Source: an uncultured Synergistia bacterium (GTDB lineage Bacteria; Eremiobacterota; SpSt-956; JAKJGF01). Taken from it: a stretch of 9,850 nt of DNA. Of the stretch, positions 87 to 9,564 are shown one piece after another. The notes beneath the pieces were generated by a model. It was not told the DNA's origin and ran no database searches. It saw only the letters and a list, made by a program, of their open reading frames with translations. The DNA lies in contig CALARM010000531.1 of assembly GCA_937888925.1 (NCBI GenBank), positions 1 through 9,850 of the forward strand. Direction: 5' to 3'. The first letter of the stretch is position 1. Each line of letters begins with the position of its first letter. The translations under genes and the position numbers were made by a program.

Positions 87-142
87 GTGAGTAGTGAAAA
101 ATGAAAAATGAATAAAGTTTAAGGTTTATAGTTGAAAGTCTG
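87..142. repeat. Degenerate heptamer tandem array
   Basis: The stretch reads in 7-nt register as GTGAGTA, GTGAAAA, ATGAAAA, ATGAATA, AAGTTTA, AGGTTTA, TAGTTGA, AAGTCTG. The first four units fit the RTRA-NNN family seen elsewhere in the window; the later units are more diverged and may be chance. Part of the gene-free stretch 1-270. Confidence 0.6.
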
Positions 143-170
143 TTTTTAAACTCTCAACGCTCAACTTTTG

Positions 171-232
171 TCACGCATCACGCATTACGCATCACGCATT
201 ACGAAACCACCCGTCACGCGTTACGCGTCACG
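171..232. repeat. Heptamer arrays downstream of the hydrolase gene
   Basis: Two adjacent arrays: TCACGCA, TCACGCA, TTACGCA, TCACGCA, TTACG at 171-203, and GTCACGC, GTTACGC, GTCACG at 213-232. CTCAACG CTCAACT just before (153-166) is a related, weaker duplication. On the minus (hydrolase) strand the units read GTGA or GTAA, giving stop triplets in every frame. Apart from the terminator at 37-69, the interval 1-270 holds only these repeats. Confidence 0.85.
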
Positions 233-270
233 ACTATAACCAGTGGAATATTTACCGTTATAAGCACTTA

Positions 271-987
271 CTATTTACTGCTCTGAAATTCATCTATGAC
301 CCACCGTACTGCTTCATCATAGACTGTTTCAGGTGCCATTGTATGGCCTCCTGAAAATTCTATCCATTTTATTTTCCATCCCAGATTCTGCAAAAAATCT
401 CTGTCACGCTGCATTTCATCATAACGAAAATCCTCCGGGCTTGCCAGGAGAACAGCTATTTTTCCCCTGGGATATGCCGGTTCTTTAAGATATTCTTCAT
501 TTATCATACCTGTATTGATTATAATGGCACATATCATATCGGGATATAAAAAAGAAAAAGCATGAGAAGCCATTCCGCCTCCTGAAATACCTGAAGCCAT
601 GATTTTTTTGATGTCTATCGGATAGGCAGGCAATATATCTTTTTTTATTATAGTGGCTATGTCATTTATTGAAGAATCCAGATCCATTCCGTTACGTCCT
701 ATTTTGGAGGCATAAATAATCCATTTGTATTTTTCGGCCGTATTTTTCCAGAAGTCTATCATGGCTGAAGCATCTGCCGACGGAGATAGGCCGATAAGAA
801 GAGGATATTTCTCTGTTTCAGAAAGGCCTGAAGGGATATAAAGGATATAATCGGCTGTATCTATAATACTGGCTGCTGTCTGTGTAGGTGTTGCAGCAAC
901 CTGTGTCGTCTGTGACAGGGAAGATGAAGAACATCCTGTAAATAACATAAAGATTCCTGCTATATATAATACAAAATATTTTAACAT
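271..987 (-). CDS. Alpha/beta-hydrolase lipoprotein (esterase/depolymerase-like)
   Basis: A 238-residue predicted lipoprotein: hydrophobic N-terminus, lipobox LFTGC with Cys19 as the lipidated residue, then a Ser/Thr-rich linker (residues 20-40). The rest resembles an alpha/beta hydrolase of the dienelactone hydrolase/LpqC/PHB-depolymerase type. The nucleophile elbow is GISGG with Ser135; the likely acid is Asp186 (SPEDFRYD) and the likely catalytic His is His215 (GGHTMAP), in the expected order and spacing. It probably hydrolyses an ester at the envelope; the substrate cannot be told. ATG start at 987 with AGAAGG 9 nt upstream. A 252-nt gap and its own promoter (1030-1035) separate it from the RND gene, so its membership in the efflux operon is doubtful. 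Catalytic assignment is by motif only; a non-catalytic family member is possible. Confidence 0.75.
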   Translation of the reverse strand: MLKYFVLYIAGIFMLFTGCSSSSLSQTTQVAATPTQTAASIIDTADYILYIPSGLSETEKYPLLIGLSPSADASAMIDFWKNTAEKYKWIIYASKIGRNGMDLDSSINDIATIIKKDILPAYPIDIKKIMASGISGGGMASHAFSFLYPDMICAIIINTGMINEEYLKEPAYPRGKIAVLLASPEDFRYDEMQRDRDFLQNLGWKIKWIEFSGGHTMAPETVYDEAVRWVIDEFQSSK

Positions 988-1029
988 ATTTTATGGCCTT
1001 CTATTTTTGCTGGATTTTATCCTGAAAAT

Positions 1030-1058
1030 ATTATACCATATTAAGTGAGTGGTGAGTA
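1030..1058 (-). promoter_or_regulatory. Candidate promoter of the hydrolase gene (extended -10)
   Basis: On the minus strand TGGTATAAT gives a perfect TATAAT (1030-1035) with an upstream TG, an extended -10. The -35 position at 17-nt spacing reads TACTCA and is weak, as is usual for extended -10 promoters. The start codon lies about 40 nt downstream. The -35 falls in the heptamer pair GTGAGTG GTGAGTA (1045-1058). Confidence 0.5.
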
Positions 1059-1117
1059 TATAGTTAGTTTCATAACTATCCATAAATAATGACCTCGTAA
1101 TGGGTAATGCGTGATGA
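1045..1117. repeat. Heptamer repeats upstream of the hydrolase gene
   Basis: GTGAGTG GTGAGTA at 1045-1058 and GTAATGG GTAATGC GTGATGA at 1097-1117. The reverse complements are TYAY-NNN units on the minus coding strand. The remaining bases up to 1180 show no further structure I can support. Confidence 0.65.
1060..1079. repeat. Inverted repeat ATAGTTA-N6-TAACTAT
   Basis: Perfect 7-bp arms around GTTTCA, directly upstream of the -35 region of the hydrolase promoter. It could be a regulator site or a small hairpin. It does not match the CTACTA dyad upstream of blaI. AT-rich, so partly expected by chance. Confidence 0.4.
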
Positions 1118-1180
1118 GCAGGGATTAAACCCTTTACATGTCACGATAAATTAAATTCTAATAAGTTATGAAATACACTA

Positions 1181-1240
1181 TAATCCTGTAAATCCCTGTT
1201 TAATCCTGTAAATCCCTGTTTAATCCTGTAAATCCCTGTT
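1181..1240. repeat. Perfect 20-bp x3 tandem repeat abutting the RND stop codon
   Basis: Three identical 20-bp copies of TAATCCTGTAAATCCCTGTT at 1181-1200, 1201-1220 and 1221-1240. Read on the minus strand, the first A of the array is the last base of the RND gene's TAA stop. The unit is itself two similar half-units (AATCCTGT and AATCCCTGT). No homopolymer-tailed hairpin accompanies it, so it is not a classical terminator. Confidence 0.95.
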
Positions 1241-4200
1241 TAGAAGGGTAATTTAAGCTCTTTTGCGGAAACCTTTTCCCTGAACTTCAAGAACATATCG
1301 TAAAAAACAGGTAATATAAAGAGAACAAAAACAGTGGATGTGAAAAGTCCTCCTATGATAACTATAGCCATAGGTTTCTGCATTTCCGTTCCCTGAAGTT
1401 TTGTCACAACAAGAGGAATAAGTCCCAGAATAGCGCAGAGAGCTGTCATAAGTTTCGGCCTGACCCTGTCAACACTTGCTTTTATGATTGCTTCTCTGCC
1501 AGTAATTCCATGTTCTTTCATCTCTTTTATATTTGTAAAAAGTACAAGACTGTTCTGAACGGCTATACCCATAAGAGCAATGAAACCTATGGATGAAGGC
1601 ACATTTAACGAAGTTCCCGTAATAAACATGGCTATAATGCCGCCTGCAAGCGCTGCAGGAAGGGTTATCATAATAAGAAGAGTTACGGATATGGAGCCCA
1701 GGGTAATATATATAAGGATGAATACTAAAAATATGGCGAAAATTACTGCGAGTGAAAGAGAACGGAATGCTTTTTCCTGATTTTCATATTCTCCTCCGTA
1801 TACTACATAATATCCTTCGGGAAGGGTTATTTCTTTATTTATTTTTTCTTTTATGGCTTTTACGACACCTCCCACATTGCCTCCCTCTACATTGCAGTTA
1901 ATGGCAATTCTTCTTGTAAGAGCTTCATGTTTTATCGTATTTGGCACATGTGTTTCATATATACTTGCTATCTGTCCTAAAGGAACCCTTGCGCCGACAG
2001 GTGTATCTATGAGAAGATCCTGTAGTTTTTCAGGATCGGAACGATACTCATCTATGAGTCTTATATAGATACCGTAATTTTTCTTTCCGCTCCATATCTG
2101 AGAAACTTCTTCTCCTCCAAGGGCAAGTCTTATATATTCCGAAAGAGAAGCGGCAGTTATACCGTATCTTGCAGCTTCTTCACGGTTTATATCTATTTTT
2201 AACTGCGGTATTTCCGTAGCCTGTTCCATGTTAAGATCCGTAATTCCGGCGATTCCTTCCATTACTTCTCTTATTTCTTTTCCTTTTTTTATAAGTAGAG
2301 ACAGATCATCACCAAAGACTTTCACACTTACCGTAGAAGGAGTTCCTGCAATGCTTTCTTCTATTCTCATCGTAAAAGGCTGCATGATGGCAACTGCTAT
2401 ACCCGGTATTTCATTGACCCTGTGCCTCAGTTCATCCACTATTTTTTCTCTGCTTCTCTGCCTTTTTGAAGGAGGTAAGAGGTTAGCATGTATTTCAGTT
2501 GTATTTATTCCTATGGGACACTCGGATTCTTCCGCTCTGCCTACAGTGCTTATAACATCCGTTACTTCAGGAATATCATGGAGTATTTTTTCTACAAGGC
2601 CTGACAGCTTTATTGCTTTCTGAAGTGATATATCGGAAGGCATGTTAATTGATAAAAATATGGCGCCTTCATCCACTTCAGGTATGAATTCTGTGGGAAG
2701 AAAAACAGATGATGAAATAATGGCTATGACTGTTATTAATGCAATTCCGATAAAAATTTTCTCTCCTGCCAGGACTTTTCGGAGAATAGAAGTATAAAAT
2801 GTTTTTAGTTTTACTGTGATTCTGGATTCTTTTTCTTCTCCTCTCTTTTTTAAAAGATAGGAACAGAGTACGGGAGTGAGTGTGAGAGAAAGTAAGAAAG
2901 CTGCAGCCATAGAAGAACATACTGCAAAAGCAAGAGGTTTAAACATTTTCCCTTCAAGACCTCCCAGGATAAAAAGAGGAAAAAATACGGAAATTATTAT
3001 AAATGTAGCTGCAGTAGTAGGTTTTCTCATTTCTTTAACACTGTTATAAATAACATGTAACAGCGGCACCTGTCTGTTTTTCTCCTCTGAAAGACGGCGT
3101 GCCGCATTTTCAACATCTATTATCGATGCATCTACAAGAAGTGTTATGCCTATGGCAAGACCTCCTAAAGACATGGTATTAATAGAAAGTTTTGCAAGAT
3201 ACATTAAAAGAAAAGTTATTATAACGGATACCGGTATAACAAGAGCTACAATAAAGGAACTTCTTATTTCTCCCAGGAATATGATAAGAACGAGTATTAC
3301 AAAAAAAGATCCTTCAAGTATTGCTTTCTGCACGTTATGAAGGGCACTTTCTATAAGTTCTGTCTGGTCATAGTATGGGATTATTCTGTAGCCGGAAGGC
3401 AGAGTGGAATTTATTTCCTGAATGTGTTTTTTTAATTCTGCAATTGTAGTAACAGTATCGGAGCCGAACTGTTTTACAACAGTACTTGAAACAGTTTCTT
3501 CTCCGTTTCTTCTTACAATACCTCTTCTTATGGCCTGGCTGTCTTCAACGGAACCGACATCGCGAAGAAGAATTGGTATTGATTTTTTTCTTACTCCCAC
3601 CACTGACAGTGCCAGATCCTGTATTGATTGTATTCTGTTATTCTGGCCGTTTATAATCATTTCAGTCGGCCCCATAGATATAAAACTGCCAGAAGCCCCT
3701 TCGTTTGATGCTATTACTGCCCTTTCAATATCGGAAAGGGTGAGATTCAATGACTGTAATCTGTAAGGGTCTACAAGAACCTGATACTGTCGAAAATATC
3801 CGCCCATATTTATCACTTTTGAAATATTCGGTGATGTCATGATCTGATATTCCAGTTGAAATTCCGCAAGCTCACGAAGTTCTGTCAGTTCCTCCGGTGT
3901 TTCATGAGGGCCCTCAAGGGTATACTGAAAAATCTCCGACAGCCTTGTTGTTATACTGCCTATGACGGGATTTTCCGTGCCGGCAGGAAAAGAAGGCATG
4001 ACCTGTGAAAATTTCTCTGTTACGAACTGTCTTGCCAGATAATAATCCGTATCGGAGGAAAAGCTTACCGTTACTGCTGAAAGGCCCGGTATTGTAGTGG
4101 ACCTTATGCCTGTTACTCCCGGAAGTCCGTTCATAGCAGTCTCTACAGGTCTTGTAATGAGAAGTTCTACTTCCTCCTGTGCCATGGATTTGTTTTCTAT

Positions 4201-4383
4201 AAGTATATTAAAAATAGGAAGGGTAAGATCGGGGAATATGTCATTCGAAAGTTTTGTATAGGACATAATGCCTGTCAGTATGGCCATAATAACTATAAAA
4301 ATCACAAGAACCCTTTTTCGAAGAGAAAAATGAATTACCTCTGTGATAAGGGAATCCGGCTTTTCCAGGTCACTGTTATTCAA
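1240..4383 (-). CDS. RND efflux transporter, CzcA/CusA (HME-like) family
   Basis: A 1047-residue inner-membrane proton-driven pump, the usual RND length. The layout is canonical: TM1 at about 26-45; first periplasmic loop with RSTTIPGLSAVTVSF and ARQFV; a cluster of TM segments at about 355-510; second loop starting FIPEVDEGA (566-574); C-terminal TM cluster at about 875-1030. TM4 reads LLVDASIIDVEN, retaining Asp418 and Glu425, equivalent to CzcA Asp408 and Glu415; the CzcA Asp402 position is Gly412 and there is an extra Asp423. These features point to the heavy-metal efflux branch. By my alignment the three CusA Met-triad positions are Ile, Ile or Gly, and Glu, so Cu/Ag is not supported. 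Start is TTG at 4383, chosen for its strong SD (4391-4399); no ATG lies nearby. It follows the adaptor and outer-membrane genes after a 247-nt repeat-filled gap. Confidence 0.93.
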   Translation of the reverse strand: MNNSDLEKPDSLITEVIHFSLRKRVLVIFIVIMAILTGIMSYTKLSNDIFPDLTLPIFNILIENKSMAQEEVELLITRPVETAMNGLPGVTGIRSTTIPGLSAVTVSFSSDTDYYLARQFVTEKFSQVMPSFPAGTENPVIGSITTRLSEIFQYTLEGPHETPEELTELRELAEFQLEYQIMTSPNISKVINMGGYFRQYQVLVDPYRLQSLNLTLSDIERAVIASNEGASGSFISMGPTEMIINGQNNRIQSIQDLALSVVGVRKKSIPILLRDVGSVEDSQAIRRGIVRRNGEETVSSTVVKQFGSDTVTTIAELKKHIQEINSTLPSGYRIIPYYDQTELIESALHNVQKAILEGSFFVILVLIIFLGEIRSSFIVALVIPVSVIITFLLMYLAKLSINTMSLGGLAIGITLLVDASIIDVENAARRLSEEKNRQVPLLHVIYNSVKEMRKPTTAATFIIISVFFPLFILGGLEGKMFKPLAFAVCSSMAAAFLLSLTLTPVLCSYLLKKRGEEKESRITVKLKTFYTSILRKVLAGEKIFIGIALITVIAIISSSVFLPTEFIPEVDEGAIFLSINMPSDISLQKAIKLSGLVEKILHDIPEVTDVISTVGRAEESECPIGINTTEIHANLLPPSKRQRSREKIVDELRHRVNEIPGIAVAIMQPFTMRIEESIAGTPSTVSVKVFGDDLSLLIKKGKEIREVMEGIAGITDLNMEQATEIPQLKIDINREEAARYGITAASLSEYIRLALGGEEVSQIWSGKKNYGIYIRLIDEYRSDPEKLQDLLIDTPVGARVPLGQIASIYETHVPNTIKHEALTRRIAINCNVEGGNVGGVVKAIKEKINKEITLPEGYYVVYGGEYENQEKAFRSLSLAVIFAIFLVFILIYITLGSISVTLLIMITLPAALAGGIIAMFITGTSLNVPSSIGFIALMGIAVQNSLVLFTNIKEMKEHGITGREAIIKASVDRVRPKLMTALCAILGLIPLVVTKLQGTEMQKPMAIVIIGGLFTSTVFVLFILPVFYDMFLKFREKVSAKELKLPF

Positions 4384-4390
4384 TAATTAC

Positions 4391-4399
4391 ACCTTCCTT
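4391..4399 (-). promoter_or_regulatory. Shine-Dalgarno deciding the TTG start of the RND gene
   Basis: AAGGAAGGT on the minus strand lies 7 nt before TTG at 4383. This is a good ribosome binding site and supports initiation at the rare TTG codon. Confidence 0.7.
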
Positions 4400-4408
4400 A
4401 CTTCTCTC

Positions 4409-4436
4409 GTGACGCGTAACGCGTAACGCGTGACGG
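4409..4436. repeat. Heptamer array upstream of the RND gene
   Basis: GTGACGC, GTAACGC, GTAACGC, GTGACGG: four units in perfect 7-nt register, ending 10 nt from the RND Shine-Dalgarno. A diverged pair GTGATGC GTGATTT lies at 4480-4493. The minus (coding) strand shows the TYAC face. The rest of the spacer 4384-4630 shows only further repeats (4553-4568, 4612-4629) and no promoter or terminator I can defend. Confidence 0.9.
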
Positions 4437-4554
4437 GAGGAAAACCTTTATTACATGCTTATGCTCGGGTTAGTAAATCGTGATGCGTGATTTCACCACT
4501 CAGGATTGTAAGAAAAATAACTCTGGCAAATTATTAGAACGATTAGTATCCTCG

Positions 4555-4568
4555 CGTTACGCGTAACG
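4555..4568. repeat. 14-bp perfect palindrome made of opposed heptamers
   Basis: CGTTACGCGTAACG is its own reverse complement, formed by one TTACGCG unit facing one CGCGTAA unit. Its bases can also pair with the array at 4409-4436 in the transcript, since CGCGTAACGCG is complementary to CGCGTTACGCG. Confidence 0.7.
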
Positions 4569-4611
4569 ATATAAACTGTAAATATGATGTACTTTTTCCT
4601 GACAACTCCTT

Positions 4612-4629
4612 ACTGGTCACTGGTCACTG
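4612..4629. repeat. Heptamer array directly after the fusion-protein stop codon
   Basis: ACTGGTC, ACTGGTC, ACTG, the same as TCACTGG units in another register. It begins one base after the TAA stop of the membrane fusion protein gene. On the coding strand it gives TGA, TGA and TAA at 7-nt steps, so in all three frames. Confidence 0.9.
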
Positions 4630-4630
4630 T

Positions 4631-6487
4631 TTAATGCTGGCACCCTCCTTTAAGAGCTTCGCTGCTTGCTGCGGATCGTAATTCAAAAGCACCTTCTATG
4701 ACAACCTCTTCTCCCGGAGAGAGACCTTTTTTTATAACATATTCCTTGTTTCTCATAAGTTCTGCTTCAACTTCCCGTCTTTCATAGGTATTTTCTTTAT
4801 CTTTCACTGCAATAAAAATAATTTTTTCCCCTTCATCATCCAGAACTGATGACGAAGGCAGTATCAGCCCCGGTGTTTCACCTGTTTTTATCTTTGAGTT
4901 GACTGTCATACCGGGTTTGAGCAGGTTCTTTCTGTTGTCGAAGGAGAATCTTATGTCAAATGTTCTTGTTTCCTGATGGAACGTATTGCTTATATAGAAA
5001 ATTTTTCCTGTAAATATCTCTCCCTGATAGGCAGAAGTTGTTATCTCAACAGTCTGTCCTGTTTTTACTTTTGTGAAATCCTTTTCATAGATTTCGCTGT
5101 CTATCCAGAGGCTTGAACTATCGAGTACTTTAAAAATAATGGTGTTTGTATATATAAATTCACCTGTATTTATATTTCTTTCCAGTATATATCCATTTAT
5201 GGGAGAGAATACAGGAAGTTCTCCTCCTGTGTAATTACCGGCATTCTCCGGTGTTATACCGAAGGTCGCCAGTACTGCTACCGCTCTCTCATATTCAATC
5301 TGTGCTTCTTTATAGGAGGATTCCGCCTGCTGCAATTCATGAGCACTGTTCAGATCGTGACTGTATATGGTTTCTTCTCTTTTCATCTGATGCTCTGTTA
5401 TATTAAGGTCTGTTTTTGCTTTTTGAAATTCTGAAAGTGCCTGTTTATATTCTTTTTCTGCTTCTGTATATTTCGCATTTACTGCCTGCAATTCTGCATT
5501 GTCTCTTACACCTCTGTCATAAACGGACTCTTCTCTTTCCATTATGCCTTTTGCTATATCCATTGCGGTTTTTGTCTGAGTAACAGATGCGGAAGCATTT
5601 TCATATTCCGTCTGAACAGAGAGAAATTCTTTTTTTGATATTATTCCTGCTTTATATAATTTTTCACCTCTCTTCAGCTCTTCCTCTGATTTTACCAGGT
5701 TACTTTTTGCCCGTATATATTCACTTTCTGCCTCTGCAAAATTCATCTTTGCCTCATCAAGTGGCTTTTTACCGAATTCCCCTGTTTCTTCTATGGCTGT
5801 TATCTTTTTAAGTTCTGCCGAAGCAGATTTAAAATTTGCCTCTGCAGATTTTACATTTTCTTTCGCAGTAATAAATTTCGTTTTCCTGTCTGCCAGTTCT
5901 TCTTTTTTTGTTTCATAGGGAGGATCTGAAAAGGCTCCTGTCTTTGCCAGTTCTTTTTTTATTCTCAAATTTTCTGCTGCTATCTTTACCTTCTGAACTC
6001 CTCCCTGTAAATCTGCAATTGCTCTGGCCAGATCGGAACTGGATATAATAGAAAGAAGATCACCTTTATGCACATAATCTCCTAAATTTACCCTGATAAG
6101 TTTTACTTTTCCTCCCGTAACAGGAGTTATATTGACCAGAAGATTCGAATTTGCTATTACTTCTCCTATTGTTTCCATATAAGAAGGGACGCTGGAAGAT
6201 TCAATTTTTTTTATTTTTAAATCTATAGACTCTTTAATTTCTTTTTCAAGTGTAACGAATTTACTGGCTTCTCCATGAACATGGCCTTCCTCTTTATGAG
6301 TTTCTTCTGTATGAGCATCTTTCTCCTGCGTTTCTTCTGTATGAGTATCTTTCCCCTCTGTTTTCTCTGTATGGGCATCTTCTACGTGAGTTTCCTCTGT
6401 ATGAGTATGTTCTGTATGCTGTGCCTCTTTACATGCAGGAATAAACAGCAATAATAATAAAATTAAAAACAGCCTGATTAATCTCAT
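4631..6487 (-). CDS. CzcB/CusB-type membrane fusion lipoprotein, His-rich, extended hairpin
   Basis: The periplasmic adaptor linking the RND pump to the outer-membrane factor. At 618 residues it is well above the roughly 350-520 usual for RND adaptors. Order: signal with lipobox IPAC (Cys19); His/Glu/Thr-rich tail 20-72 with ten His; first half of the lipoyl domain 115-150; a very long coiled-coil region about 152-408; second lipoyl half near 425-455; beta-barrel and membrane-proximal domains to the end, with GLSPGEEVVIEGAFEL typical of CzcB-like proteins and a C-terminal CQH. The coiled coil carries the tip motif R-x3-L-x6-S (Arg273, Leu277, Ser284) known for TolC docking, with two partial copies (Arg318, Arg370). 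His-rich termini are common in metal-efflux adaptors. ATG overlaps the preceding TGA as ATGA; a strong SD GGAGGAGG precedes it. Function is secure, substrate is not. Confidence 0.92.
   Translation of the reverse strand: MRLIRLFLILLLLLFIPACKEAQHTEHTHTEETHVEDAHTEKTEGKDTHTEETQEKDAHTEETHKEEGHVHGEASKFVTLEKEIKESIDLKIKKIESSSVPSYMETIGEVIANSNLLVNITPVTGGKVKLIRVNLGDYVHKGDLLSIISSSDLARAIADLQGGVQKVKIAAENLRIKKELAKTGAFSDPPYETKKEELADRKTKFITAKENVKSAEANFKSASAELKKITAIEETGEFGKKPLDEAKMNFAEAESEYIRAKSNLVKSEEELKRGEKLYKAGIISKKEFLSVQTEYENASASVTQTKTAMDIAKGIMEREESVYDRGVRDNAELQAVNAKYTEAEKEYKQALSEFQKAKTDLNITEHQMKREETIYSHDLNSAHELQQAESSYKEAQIEYERAVAVLATFGITPENAGNYTGGELPVFSPINGYILERNINTGEFIYTNTIIFKVLDSSSLWIDSEIYEKDFTKVKTGQTVEITTSAYQGEIFTGKIFYISNTFHQETRTFDIRFSFDNRKNLLKPGMTVNSKIKTGETPGLILPSSSVLDDEGEKIIFIAVKDKENTYERREVEAELMRNKEYVIKKGLSPGEEVVIEGAFELRSAASSEALKGGCQH
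6301..6420. repeat. 30-bp x4 coding minisatellite (His-rich tail)
   Basis: Four 30-bp units at 6301, 6331, 6361 and 6391. Each has CTGTATG at the same offset (6307, 6337, 6367, 6397). In the fusion-protein frame each unit gives ten residues of the HTEET type and places His mostly at 5-residue steps. Units differ by several substitutions but no indels. Confidence 0.9.
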
Positions 6488-7779
6488 AAATCCTCCTCCA
6501 GTTTGATTGAAGCAGCCCTTTCACATTTTGCGATAGCTCCGTAATATTTGTAGACAGCTTCTATATATTCTCTCTGTATTTCATTATATGTTTTCATTGC
6601 ATCCATAAATTCCAGATATGAAAATGCTCCTTCTTCATATCCGTACTGAGCCTTCCATAGAAGATCATCGGAATTTACCAGTATTTTATTTCTGAAAGCT
6701 GTAACTAAACTTCTGGCTTCAGCCAATTCATAACAGGCTTTTTCCGCTTCCAGTTTCACCTGTATTTTTACAGATGATAACATGGCTTCTTCCTGTCTCT
6801 GGCCTGCTTCTGCCATATCTATCTGTGAGCCTATGGAACCATAATCGAAAACAGGAAGGGCGAACCTGAATACCACTCCGTTTTCCTCCGGTTCATGTTC
6901 TCTGTTTGAATCTCTTCTATAGGATACTATAAGATCTGGAAACCTCTCTCTTTTTGCCATACTGATTTCATATTCTTTCACAGATATTAATGCTTCCTGA
7001 CCTTTTATAACAGGCCTTTTTGCAAGGGCTTCCTGTATAATTTCTTCCTCTTTTACTTCTTTTATTTTTATGCTGTTTATATCACCAACTGATATATCGA
7101 TATTTTTTCTGTCATACTGTCCCATAATACTGAATATAGCTGATGCGGCAATCTTTAGTTGATTCTCTGCATGAATAAGAGCCTGTACCGCACGCGCTTC
7201 TTCAAGCTGAAAACGGAGGAATTCCGCCTGCGGAATATTGCCGAGATTATATTCTATTTCTGATTTTTCCAGTGCTTTTTTGAAAAGCTCTGTATTTTTT
7301 TCCTGAAGCTTATAAATTTCAAAAGCGGTGCAATAGTCATAGTATCTGAGCCTTGCCTGAAGGGAAGTTTCAAGAATTACCTCCTGTAACTGACATGCCT
7401 CATAAAAAGCCTCTCTTTCCGCCTTTTCGCCTTTTAGATGAAATTTCCCTGATATGTCAAATAACTGAGAGAGGAGTATATTTTCTTTCCTTTCTATAGA
7501 GCCTGTATTTGGGCCTATAACGAGTTCCGGATTCGGCCATGTGCCGCTTCCCCTGGCGGCAGCCTCGAAATATGCCAGTTTTTGTTTTGCAGCATTTATA
7601 TCGGGATTTTTTTCTATGGTAATAGCTATAATATCTTCAACAGTCAATATATTCTCAGATGCACGGCATGGAGAAGTAAGAAGAAATATGCTCAATAAGA
7701 GAATAAAAAAAAATTGAAAGATGTTTATATAATCGTAACGCGTAACGCGTAACACGTTACGCGTGGTTTCATTACTCAT
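6484..7779 (-). CDS. TolC/CzcC-family outer-membrane efflux protein
   Basis: The outer-membrane channel of the tripartite pump. Counting from a possible GTG at 7809 (441 residues) I number as follows: hydrophobic core 32-46 and a likely signal peptidase I site after CRA (50); then two OEP repeats, with NIPQAEFLRFQLEEA (191-205), ALPVFDYGSIGSQIDMAEA (317-335) and a C-terminal YEEGAFSYLEFMDA (391-404), all typical of CzcC/CusC-like proteins. I prefer the ATG at residue 11 (position 7779), which has GGTGA 4 nt upstream; the GTG at 7809 lies inside a repeat and also has a GGTGA. No start lies between the repeat-encoded residues (16-25) and the hydrophobic core, so translation must read through the heptamer array at 7735-7762. 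The stop overlaps the next gene by 4 nt. An A9 run (7705-7713, plus strand) lies in the signal-sequence codons. Confidence 0.9.
   Translation of the reverse strand: MSNETTRNVLRVTRYDYINIFQFFFILLLSIFLLTSPCRASENILTVEDIIAITIEKNPDINAAKQKLAYFEAAARGSGTWPNPELVIGPNTGSIERKENILLSQLFDISGKFHLKGEKAEREAFYEACQLQEVILETSLQARLRYYDYCTAFEIYKLQEKNTELFKKALEKSEIEYNLGNIPQAEFLRFQLEEARAVQALIHAENQLKIAASAIFSIMGQYDRKNIDISVGDINSIKIKEVKEEEIIQEALAKRPVIKGQEALISVKEYEISMAKRERFPDLIVSYRRDSNREHEPEENGVVFRFALPVFDYGSIGSQIDMAEAGQRQEEAMLSSVKIQVKLEAEKACYELAEARSLVTAFRNKILVNSDDLLWKAQYGYEEGAFSYLEFMDAMKTYNEIQREYIEAVYKYYGAIAKCERAASIKLEEDL
7735..7762. repeat. Heptamer array inside the TolC-family gene N-terminus
   Basis: GTAACGC, GTAACGC, GTAACAC, GTTACGC in exact 7-nt register. 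The coding strand reads the reverse complement and encodes TRNVLRVTRY just before the signal-peptide core. The only unit that shows GTAAC on the coding strand is out of frame as a stop (CGT AAC), so the frame stays open. Confidence 0.9.
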
Positions 7780-7783
7780 CTTT

Positions 7784-7788
7784 TCACC
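7784..7788 (-). promoter_or_regulatory. Shine-Dalgarno GGTGA supporting the ATG at 7779
   Basis: GGTGA matches the 3' end of the consensus AGGAGGTGA and lies 4 nt before ATG. A second, apparently orphan SD (AGAGGAG, 7839-7845) has no start codon at a useful distance. Confidence 0.45.
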
Positions 7789-7804
7789 ATATACCCTTCG
7801 TTTT

Positions 7805-7874
7805 TTCACTCTTCACCCTTCAGGGCGTTTAGTAAAACTCCTCTGCTCACTTTTCACTCTTCACTTTTCACTAA
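7805..7874. repeat. Heptamer arrays between the M56 and TolC-family genes
   Basis: TTCACTC, TTCACCC, TTCAGGG at 7805-7825 and TCACTTT, TCACTCT, TCACTTT, TCACTAA at 7847-7874. On the minus strand the M56 gene's TAG stop uses the first G of a GTGAAAA unit. A possible GTG start of the next gene (7807-7809) also falls in the first array. Confidence 0.88.
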
Positions 7875-8917
7875 ATATTAATAAGCAATTCCATAAAACA
7901 GTGTTCAATATTCAAAACATGTTTCACTATTATGAGAAAACAAAAAAATAATATATAAAAACTTATATTTTTCAGTAATAACAGACGGGAAACATGGCTT
8001 GTAAAAAAAGAATTATTTTTTTTGCTGTATTCAATTAATTTTTCAAGTCTTAATCTGATAGAACTTTTTCCGAAACAGGAAAATGCGTAATTTTCATGAG
8101 GAGTTTCCGAAAGTTCTACTGTCTTGACAAGGGCCGATGCAACAGCAAGAGGATTCTTCGTATGAAAAACGGAAAATTTATCACATTCTAAATCTCTGTT
8201 TTTATCCCATTCTTTATAAAATTTCATAGGAAGAAAAAATAAAATACTGTTACATAATAATATGATAAGTCTTACAGGATTATCCCTGTTTATTATATGA
8301 CATGCTTCATGATACATAAGACCTTCCAGTTCTCTGTCATTTAATGTTTCTGTTAATTTTTTCGGCACTATGACCACAGGATTAAAGATCCCTGTAATCC
8401 CTGTATATTTTACCGGTATATGTGCTTCCTGAAATTTTATGGAAGTTCCCAGTTTTTTGTTGATCTTCTCACCCGGTATATTAACTCTTTCCGATGTAAT
8501 AATAAATCTTTTTGAGAGACTCCTGTAAAATATTCCTGTTGATACAAGCAGTGAACATATCTTCAGGCATGATACAATCATTAATATGACAGCAAGAACT
8601 TTAAGTATAATTACTGTATCTTTAGCTTCCCCCGGTACCGTATCAAGAGCTATATGGATTATTCCGTTTATCCCGGCACATCTCGTATGTCCGTCAAAAA
8701 TATTATTGTCAGGACATTTACTCTGTTCCCAGTAAGTATAAAGTGTTATATAAGAAGAAATTAATACGGGAAATACTGTAATGAAAAGAAAATTTTTTGA
8801 CAGGTTTTTAATAAAGAGATTTTTTATCTTTTCAAAAAAATAGAAAATTATCGTCGTAAATAAAGTAAAAAACAGAAAAAATAAATAAATAGAACTCAGA
8901 ATATTAAGGATTTTCAT
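7871..8917 (-). CDS. M56/BlaR1-type membrane zinc metalloprotease without penicillin sensor
   Basis: 348 residues with predicted TM segments at about 4-27, 43-62, 101-127, 215-231 and 313-332. The zinc protease motif is HEACH (His203, Glu204, His207), followed by ECD (Glu244-Asp246), the expected third-ligand region of the M56 family. GIFNPVVIVPKKL (176-188) is another family hallmark. In BlaR1/MecR1 such a protease cleaves the cognate BlaI repressor on signal. The large C-terminal penicillin-binding domain of BlaR1 is absent; only a short tail follows the last TM. The outer loop between TM2 and TM3 (about 63-100) holds Cys68, His77, Cys80 and His88, a possible sensor site. ATG overlaps the blaI stop by 14 nt, so translation is probably coupled. 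The stop codon abuts a heptamer array, so the C-terminus may have been shortened. Confidence 0.9.
   Translation of the reverse strand: MKILNILSSIYLFFLFFTLFTTIIFYFFEKIKNLFIKNLSKNFLFITVFPVLISSYITLYTYWEQSKCPDNNIFDGHTRCAGINGIIHIALDTVPGEAKDTVIILKVLAVILMIVSCLKICSLLVSTGIFYRSLSKRFIITSERVNIPGEKINKKLGTSIKFQEAHIPVKYTGITGIFNPVVIVPKKLTETLNDRELEGLMYHEACHIINRDNPVRLIILLCNSILFFLPMKFYKEWDKNRDLECDKFSVFHTKNPLAVASALVKTVELSETPHENYAFSCFGKSSIRLRLEKLIEYSKKNNSFFTSHVSRLLLLKNISFYILFFCFLIIVKHVLNIEHCFMELLINI
8388..8405. repeat. 9-bp x2 direct repeat in the M56 gene
   Basis: ATCCCTGTA twice in tandem, encoding Thr-Gly-Ile twice before the family motif FNP. The unit resembles half of the 20-bp repeat at 1181-1240. It may be coincidence with a conserved Gly-rich turn. 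Confidence 0.6.
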
Positions 8918-9347
8918 TGTTTTTGTCCTGTTCCAATTCGGCTATTATATGGGAAAATTTTCTGACAACCTCCAGATCTTCAGGATCTTCCGGATTTGCA
9001 AAATAAGACATAAGAGGTTCTTTCATGTCAGAAAACAGACCTTTTAAGGTTTCCCTTATTATATGCTTTTCTAACCTTTTTTCAGTAACTTTCGGCCAGT
9101 AATTATAACCTTTCACTATTTTCTTTCTGGAAAGGATTCCTTTTTTATAAAGCCTGTCCATAGTGGTCATTACAGTTGTATAGGCTATATCTCTTTTGTC
9201 TTTTATTATGTCAAATACCTCTCTTACGGACAGTTCACCTTTTCCCCAGATAATCTCCATGATGTCTGCCTCCAGAAAACCGAGTGCTTTCCTTATACCG
9301 CTTTCCGATAGATGGAGATTTTCAAATTTAATATCCTGATTTTTCAT
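8904..9347 (-). CDS. blaI: BlaI/MecI-family transcriptional repressor
   Basis: 147 residues, the usual length of the family. N-terminal winged helix: LGFLEADIMEIIWGKGELSV (22-41), then REVFDIIKDKRDIAYTTVMTTMDRLYKKGIL with the family signature AYTTVMTTMDRL that forms the recognition helix, followed by the wing. The C-terminal part is the dimerisation and protease-sensitive region. It has no cysteine, so it lacks the CxC metal cluster of CopY; induction is more likely through cleavage by the adjacent M56 protease than by direct metal binding. ATG at 9347 with GAGGT 6 nt upstream. First gene of the operon; it presumably represses its own promoter at the dyad 9396-9414. The symbol denotes family, not a role in beta-lactam resistance. 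Confidence 0.93.
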   Translation of the reverse strand: MKNQDIKFENLHLSESGIRKALGFLEADIMEIIWGKGELSVREVFDIIKDKRDIAYTTVMTTMDRLYKKGILSRKKIVKGYNYWPKVTEKRLEKHIIRETLKGLFSDMKEPLMSYFANPEDPEDLEVVRKFSHIIAELEQDKNNENP

Positions 9348-9379
9348 AATATGACCTCATTTGAATATTATTAAAATAA

Positions 9380-9408
9380 ATTTTAACATTTACATCTACT
9401 ACTGTCAA
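9380..9408 (-). promoter_or_regulatory. Sigma70-type promoter of the blaI-efflux operon
   Basis: On the minus strand: perfect -35 TTGACA (9403-9408), 17-nt spacer, -10 TAAAAT (9380-9385). The blaI start codon is about 33 nt below the -10. This is the strongest promoter match in the window. Confidence 0.8.
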
Positions 9409-9414
9409 TAGTAG
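9396..9414. promoter_or_regulatory. Candidate BlaI operator overlapping the -35 box
   Basis: Dyad CTACTA-N7-TAGTAG with two further symmetric inner bases on each side (TG/CA), 19 bp centred on 9405. The TTGACA -35 lies at its centre. Known BlaI/MecI operators are dyads of related TACTA/TAGTA and TACA/TGTA character placed over the promoter, so this is the natural repressor site. A protein bound here would block RNA polymerase. Confidence 0.7.
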
Positions 9415-9444
9415 GTTTGAAACTACAAAAAATGATCTTATTAT

Positions 9445-9473
9445 TATACAATCCGGTAAAGAAATGTTATAAT
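9445..9473 (+). promoter_or_regulatory. Divergent promoter for the membrane-protein gene
   Basis: TATACA (9445-9450), 17-nt spacer, TATAAT (9468-9473) with TG at 9465-9466, an extended -10. It faces away from blaI and would give a leader of about 120 nt before the ATG at 9600. Its -35 is about 30 bp from the blaI dyad, so shared control is possible. Confidence 0.6.
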
Positions 9474-9494
9474 ATAATATCAAACTAACAAACA

Positions 9495-9509
9495 TGATTG
9501 GTTCAATCA
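9495..9509. promoter_or_regulatory. Palindrome TGATTG-GTT-CAATCA downstream of the divergent promoter
   Basis: Perfect 6-bp arms, 3-bp centre, located about 15-30 nt past the predicted start of transcription. The position suits a repressor operator or a small leader hairpin. Unrelated in sequence to the blaI dyad. Confidence 0.45.
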
Positions 9510-9537
9510 CAACGAAGTATGAGAATTTGTTCCTCCC

Positions 9538-9564
9538 GTCACGCGTCACGCGTTACGCGTTACG
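9538..9564. repeat. Heptamer array in the leader of the divergent gene
   Basis: GTCACGC, GTCACGC, GTTACGC, GTTACG in 7-nt register. The TYAC face is on the plus strand, which is the coding strand of the gene that follows. Confidence 0.9.

Follow-up and report, generated by a model that had tools for sequence, protein, structure and literature searches.

The 9,850-base stretch analysed here (contig CALARM010000531.1, 36.7% G+C; hereafter the window) carries, between its genes, tandem arrays of degenerate heptamers that share a four-base core, TYAY, followed by a looser triplet (TYAYNNN, or RTRANNN on the other strand, where Y is a pyrimidine and R a purine). These arrays are commonly arranged as polar pairs, an RTRA arm followed by a TYAY arm, and they represent, in a form specific to this lineage, a type of repeat known from other bacteria. 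The reading that we favour, although we give it rather less than an even chance, is that they constitute a family of small fold-back repeats. Its computed basis is the 7-nt register, the polarity of the pairs, their predicted hairpins, length differences of whole units, and units that differ in orthologous gaps; also part of this basis are their expansion in a single lineage and the finding that a miniature inverted-repeat element holds some of the copies. A preliminary description of the window had reported the heptamers but not their pairing and polarity, their predicted folding into hairpins or the miniature element that occupies 1059-1182; the polar TYAY pairs and a sister family, TYAG, with reversed polarity are new here.

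An exact scan of the window found ten TYAYNNN runs of at least three units, against a mean of 0.19 and a maximum of 2 in 200 dinucleotide shuffles of its sequence, and five runs of at least four units, against 0.005. Base identity at lag 7 was 0.376 in the gaps between genes vs 0.24 in a stretch of the gene for the CusA-like pump. Genome-wide tests were made in G001 (UR.bin48, 5.0 Mb), the genome nearest to the window. The check proposed in the preliminary description, an excess over shuffled sequence, came out clearly in its favour: in 40 contigs taken by stepped contig number and not chosen for their content (388,111 bases, five shuffles averaged), there were 95 runs of at least three units vs 8.2, 43 of at least four vs 0.2, and 16 of at least five vs 0. 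Scaled to 5 Mb, the first of these counts gives an estimate of more than 1,000 runs. A four-unit TYAY pattern had 398 + 404 matches in the whole of G001 and 46 + 53 when read backwards, with overlapping matches within long arrays counted separately. Chance origin is ruled out by the shuffle comparisons in both the window and G001.

The core can be recovered without being presupposed. A core-free scan of 222 kb of the unchosen contigs detected 44 regions with lag-7 repetition, compared with 0 to 8 at lags 4-6 and 8-13 and 15 at lag 14, and the possibility that the arrays have no common core was rejected, as TCA or TTA is present in 93 of 94 core-free arrays (low-complexity ones dropped) vs 51.9 expected when units are shuffled. 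The best-fitting triplet with one ambiguity was T[CT]A (mean occupancy 0.765). The commonest period-7 triplet, TCA/TGA, forms 31 runs of at least four units vs 0.2 in shuffled sequence, and CTA/TAG just 2; in runs of at least three units, TCA/TGA splits into TCAC (39) and TCAG (19), and position 4 divides the arrays into TYAY and TYAG families. The earlier proposal of a single family therefore has to be given up, given this second core with the opposite order, while a fixed core with a looser triplet in strict 7-nt register is borne out by the scans of the window and of G001. Local amplification of units is likewise supported, the triplets being alike within a locus (identity 0.60 inside arrays vs 0.32 between loci). 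They are not wholly free, as had been thought, since TTT, GTC, GCA and TCT are the commonest among 486 units. The description of the arrays as occupying almost every intergenic space is true of the window and does not extend to G001, where 48 of the 145 gaps that measure 60 nt or more contain arrays (tandem, 28/99; divergent, 12/26; convergent, 8/20), genes being counted here as open frames of at least 120 aa only. The arrays are nevertheless mostly intergenic, with 10 of 95 inside such frames in the unchosen contigs and 15 of 158 in all.

Polarity was assessed in pairs, defined as neighboring runs of at least three units within 150 nt, in 60 G001 contigs, 20 of which were chosen for holding arrays; the other 40 are the unchosen ones. 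The order was RTRA then TYAY in 36 pairs, reversed in 2 and in the same direction in 3; the unchosen contigs gave 20, 0 and 3. The three window pairs, at 87-111 and 171-202, 4473-4490 and 4610-4627, and 7735-7752 and 7847-7871, all have the RTRA arm first. When arrays of at least three units were turned to read TYAY, their shorter neighbors within 120 nt stood to the left and in the opposite orientation in 237 cases, the other classes holding 30, 30 and 13. The order by gap type was 10 to 0 in convergent gaps, 13 to 0 in tandem gaps, 4 to 2 in divergent gaps, 3 to 0 within frames and 6 to 0 at contig ends, with both reversed pairs situated in divergent gaps. Next to gene 3' ends the order thus holds firmly, whereas the six pairs in divergent gaps show no more than a tendency. 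Where the RTRA side is turned toward a gene 3' end, the median distance is 1 nt (58 of 78 within 30 nt, 36 of 78 overlapping the stop codon), and toward a gene 5' end it is 106 nt.

The TYAG family, in turn, has 23 pairs in the order opposite to that of TYAY and 2 otherwise. Its copies take the form TYAGCNN...NNGCTRA (in L037, L046, L063 and other G001 contigs), some with a common loop, AGCTTAAGGAAAAA, and common flanks. A general purine bias was tried as the source of polarity and rejected: all G001 lag-7 arrays were purine then pyrimidine in 26 cases, the reverse in 6 and mixed in 8, and the reverse cases may be TYAG. Cyanobacterial plasmids (L099-L101) contain many heptamer families with other cores, often a purine-rich arm followed by a pyrimidine-rich one. 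Their opposed pairs were 12 to 0 in favor of the purine-rich arm first; selected plasmid stretches (200 kb) gave 10 pairs in this order, 0 in the reverse and 11 of the same type, and unselected ones (300 kb), with few arrays, gave 2, 0 and 0.

The pairs are also predicted to fold. For 36 G001 pairs, predicted RNA folds had a mean z of -4.29 relative to shuffles, 30 of the 36 being below -2, and the shorter arm was paired with its partner over a median of 86% of its length. In the cyanobacterial plasmid stretches, which were picked via a BLAST hit, own arms gave -33.6 kcal/mol vs -21.3 for swapped arms.

The window encodes, according to Pfam, a CusA-like resistance-nodulation-division (RND) pump, a membrane-fusion protein, an outer-membrane efflux protein, a BlaR1-like M56 peptidase and a BlaI-like repressor. 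A CusA 95% identical to that of the window lies on L001, a G001 contig deposited under 'Bacillota bacterium UR.bin48', which allowed orthologous gaps to be compared. In both the gap between the BlaR1-like and outer-membrane protein genes and the gap between the membrane-fusion and CusA genes, RTRA follows the upstream gene and TYAY precedes the downstream one in the window as in L001, and yet the units differ throughout, with neighboring genes 88.7 and 92.6% identical in DNA. Downstream of CusA, L001 is unlike the window. Within the phylum sample of 149 genomes (G001 and 148 others), a four-unit TYAC pattern matched in seven, with 556 matches in G001 and 1 to 7 in the other six; stretches of G023, G005, G009 and G052, picked because they matched, show like units. 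The array expansion is seen in one lineage.

Some copies are carried by a miniature element. In the window it spans 124 bp (1059-1182), its ends (1059-1076 and 1165-1182) match TATAGTNNNTTTCATAAC, it holds a minus-strand RTRA array of three units (1097-1114), and a minus-strand RTRA stretch of two units (GTGAGTG, 1045-1058) adjoins it. It has the features of a miniature inverted-repeat transposable element (MITE), being short and geneless, with terminal inverted repeats and many copies. A one-pair search gave 47 matches in G001, and the aligned copies proved to be this element, which encloses a convergent heptamer pair between its inverted ends. The end pattern itself had 74 matches vs 0 for a reversed control. 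Spacings between the listed ends were about 85 to 150 bp, none being long enough to suggest an autonomous copy, and 24 complete copies measured 108 to 151 bp. The ends, TATAGT...ACTATA, would permit a TA target-site duplication; flanking bases vary. In 12 of 18 copies (those, from 31 loci scanned, whose core one expression could excise), the core length falls in one residue class modulo 7 (51, 58, 65 and 79 nt). Copies of the element differ from one another mostly in their number of complete units of 7 nt. A further dispersed element, which contains no heptamers and has TAAGTACCGCAACAGG...CCTGTTGCGGTACTTA as its inverted ends, occurs at L071:13690-13900 and in other G001 contigs (29 BLAST segments in 658 kb), and a short palindromic repeat, GGGCGAACACAGGGTTCGCCCC, is found beside several arrays (L073:6530, L083:520, L085:1030, L001:4360).

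On the fold-back reading, a complete copy would be a convergent pair, 5'-(RTRANNN)n - spacer - (TYAYNNN)n-3', that reads the same on either strand. Short palindromic seeds may scatter into gaps, and slippage or template switching at the hairpin may then add whole units to their arms or remove them, which would make triplets alike within a locus. Polarity would be inherited from the seed, as the sister TYAG family, with its opposite order, suggests. The arms may extend to the nearest indispensable base, and for this reason RTRA arms would abut gene 3' ends, often supplying the stop codon. By analogy, the pair may work like the paired inverted extragenic repeats known as REPINs (repetitive extragenic palindromic [REP] doublets forming hairpins) or BIMEs (bacterial interspersed mosaic elements), a likeness that we do not extend to a claim of membership.

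Several results weigh against this reading. Chimeras with one arm taken from another locus fold nearly as well (mean z -3.87), which indicates that the arms pair through features common to all loci; own arms in G001 pair no better than swapped ones, and the triplets of the two arms are hardly more alike within one locus than between loci (0.337 vs 0.309, p 0.15). Hairpin templating at each locus therefore does not maintain the G001 arms, and locus-specific pairing was dropped on the evidence of arm triplets, swapped arms and chimeras. Pairs with the arm order reversed also fold (z -3.69), so hairpins leave the polarity unexplained. Slippage alone cannot account for a core that is shared genome-wide. 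Runs of two units give a weak TYAY order (112 vs 54), since chance alone should produce the majority of such runs. The miniature element contains just 4 of the 117 array loci, and non-array repeats are present at 35 of 117 array loci vs 47 of 107 array-free gaps; with few loci in the element and repeated flanks rarer at arrays, general mobility is unsupported, and the arrays as parts of dispersed repeats fit only in a minority of cases. The relaxed order in divergent gaps is, in addition, a hint that gene 3' ends matter for polarity. Because both reversed pairs are in such gaps, we have set the fold-back reading lower, below even confidence, and we keep as a possible, although distinctly doubtful, alternative that the pairs are gene boundaries.

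According to this alternative, each pair is a two-way boundary in which, on each strand, RTRA stops the ribosome and a C-rich, G-poor TYAY arm then acts like a Rho loading site. RTRA offers TAA or TGA every 7 nt, so that three units would halt a ribosome whatever its frame. The close approach of RTRA sides to gene 3' ends is what would be expected, as is an order that is fixed in convergent and tandem gaps and relaxed in divergent ones, where no gene ends. TYAY arms are 36% C and 5% G (17% and 17% contig-wide), TCA/TGA exceeds CTA/TAG by 31 to 2 runs although TAG ends 36 of 196 long frames, Rho is encoded in G001 (640 bits, above the cut-off), and a crude scan found a terminator-like hairpin with a T run after only 12 of 139 gene ends. 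However, TAG is equally usable as a stop, arrays are no commoner in convergent than in divergent gaps, and some lie within the window efflux cluster, where termination would divide an apparent operon. The predicted fold of the pairs would also mask the C-rich arm. Terminator-like sites are no rarer at array-side ends (3/44) than elsewhere (9/95), and the idea that arrays substitute for terminators was abandoned for want of any difference. Moreover, the TYAG family has its TGA side inward and the cyanobacterial plasmids have heptamer pairs without stops, which together contradict an account based on stops only.

It is also conceivable, if rather unlikely, that the arrays are binding sites, with a putative DNA- or RNA-binding protein reading the core every 7 nt, the triplets free and the pair forming a two-sided site. 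This would fit a core common to loci with differing triplets and arms that are interchangeable between loci, which is what a core set by a single trans-acting factor would lead one to expect, and the cited passages of MacGregor (PMC4679880) propose a binding protein for TAACTGA repeats. On the other hand, such a protein did not come to light, no search aimed at one having been made; 7 bp is not a whole helical turn, and for an essential site it would be odd that array length and place differ between related loci and that 6 of 148 relatives have traces only. A further reading, which we regard as unlikely, is a genome-wide punctuation: one trans-acting factor would read RTRA/TYAY at 7-nt intervals and flag the borders of genes on either strand, a stop codon in each frame preceding the C-rich arm. 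TYAG, with its reversed polarity, would mark something else, and the facing layout that begins with the purine-rich arm would have emerged around other cores in cyanobacteria and Xanthomonas.

That the arrays are simply the interior of miniature transposons spreading through the genome is improbable. One family, with a copy in the window, does carry the convergent pair, as its 74 end matches vs 0 attest, but so few array loci lie inside it and the other arrays have unlike surroundings. Mobilization as REP elements by a REP-associated tyrosine transposase is very improbable: the pairs are inverted, intergenic and hairpin-forming like REPINs as characterized in the cited part of PMC3116915, and G001 has six Y1_Tnp matches, but the link to the transposase is weak in the four of these loci examined, three having no nearby run of at least three units and the fourth one AT-rich run just ahead of the gene, and the unit is a 7-nt tandem, with no sign of a fixed palindrome bearing a GTAG tag.

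Among known systems, the closest likeness is to Xanthomonas, for which the cited sections of Rehm et al. 2015 (PMC4692102) give degenerate (GGGANTN)n or GGGAATC heptamers that form convergent pairs in two species (70 and 75 cases); the view that a fixed core with free bases was undescribed is therefore not sustained. As presented there, those repeats resemble ours in being mostly intergenic degenerate heptamers at hundreds of sites, in convergent pairs, nearer the 5' neighboring gene and unshared between related species, and ours likewise combine fixed and free positions in a 7-nt tandem with convergent neighbors (36 to 2). The same sections describe a GGGA core with G-quadruplex potential in a GC-rich host, whereas here the core is TYAY/RTRA, the arms read stop codons and a miniature element carries the pair. 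No quadruplex-capable G-rich unit was found, the RTRA strand having no GGG run and the TYAY strand being rich in C and poor in G. The GTGATTA of Helicobacter, cited in that source, fits RTRANNN too.

TAACTGA direct repeats are reported in the cited portions of MacGregor 2015 (PMC4679880) from Beggiatoaceae, cyanobacteria and Bacteroidetes. They too are intergenic heptamers, and the rotation ATAACTG fits RTRANNN, but they are portrayed there as one fixed heptamer, with related ones rare, usually forward and just upstream of start codons, and as pairs only in one inverted case; TAACTGA was not among the frequent units of the 486 from G001. Short tandemly repeated repetitive (STRR) heptamers and other simple repeats are reportedly known in cyanobacteria from work by Mazel and by Costa. 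Own-arm complementarity was seen here in the cyanobacterial plasmids and not in G001. Degenerate heptanucleotide repeats in a Nostoc trnL intron hairpin, as given in the cited part of PMC3488679, share with the present arrays base-pairing arms and copy-number variation, and differ in lying in an intron loop or having other cores. REP dimers (Di Nocera et al., PMC3733652) and REPINs (Bertels and Rainey, PMC3116915), like BIMEs, are, in the passages cited, inverted pairs in gaps with hairpin potential, often after genes. The present pairs are likewise inverted and foldable, but instead of a 20-40 bp palindrome with a GTAG or CGTC tag they have 7-nt tandem arms with a GTRA core, and no linked transposase is shown by the four Y1_Tnp loci examined, one weak AT-rich run apart. 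Searches covering only open-licence PubMed Central papers found neither the TYAY core itself nor such a core with a sister family of reversed polarity.

Within the window, the loci listed in the preliminary description all hold TYAY/RTRA heptamers in 7-nt register, and most stand as given; weaker are 1045-1058, with two units only, and 7805-7874, where only 7847-7871 reaches three. The first pair is convergent, with four RTRA units on the minus strand as its left arm (87-111) and, opposite, five TYAY units on the plus strand (171-202, TCACGCA/TTACGCA), beyond which, after a register break, three more plus-strand units follow (214-231, TCACGCG/TTACGCG). On the CusA side of the gap between the membrane-fusion and CusA genes, a four-unit array (4409-4433, minus strand) reads TYAY in the sense of those minus-strand genes. 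In the same gap, the three-unit RTRA arm at 4473-4490 (minus strand) is the left partner of a three-unit TYAY arm (4610-4627, plus strand) located right behind the stop codon of the membrane-fusion gene (4631-6487, minus strand), and a palindrome at 4556-4569, CGTTACGCGTAACG, has one unit in each orientation, head to head. The third pair has a three-unit RTRA arm (7735-7752, minus strand) that continues into one inverted unit (GTTACGCG), and a four-unit TYAY arm (7847-7871, plus strand) where the BlaR1-like gene (7871-8917, minus strand) has its stop codon. A last TYAY array, of four units (9539-9563, plus strand), lies between the BlaI-like gene and the next gene. Rfam gave no match at gathering score in the window.

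Other repeats were observed as well. A 20-bp unit, TAATCCTGTAAATCCCTGTT, is exactly repeated 3.1 times at 1181-1242, between the miniature element and the CusA end. In the membrane-fusion gene, in-frame 30-bp repeats (6287-6418) encode a His/Glu-rich stretch (HTEETH...) near the N-terminus, the length of which varies among relatives of the protein; one such relative, P0003, is labelled by its depositor as a Candidatus Eremiobacteraeota protein.

Among the longer simple repeats, heptamers are the most frequent in many bacterial genomes, according to the cited passages of PMC4679880. With an estimated number of runs above 1,000, two families of opposite polarity, and dozens of miniature-element copies whose arms differ by whole units, the present genome offers a natural test of how such arrays originate, grow and keep their core. 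To our knowledge, there is no agreed cause for heptamer repeats. If the boundary reading were true, the pairs would represent a new way of separating genes on both strands.

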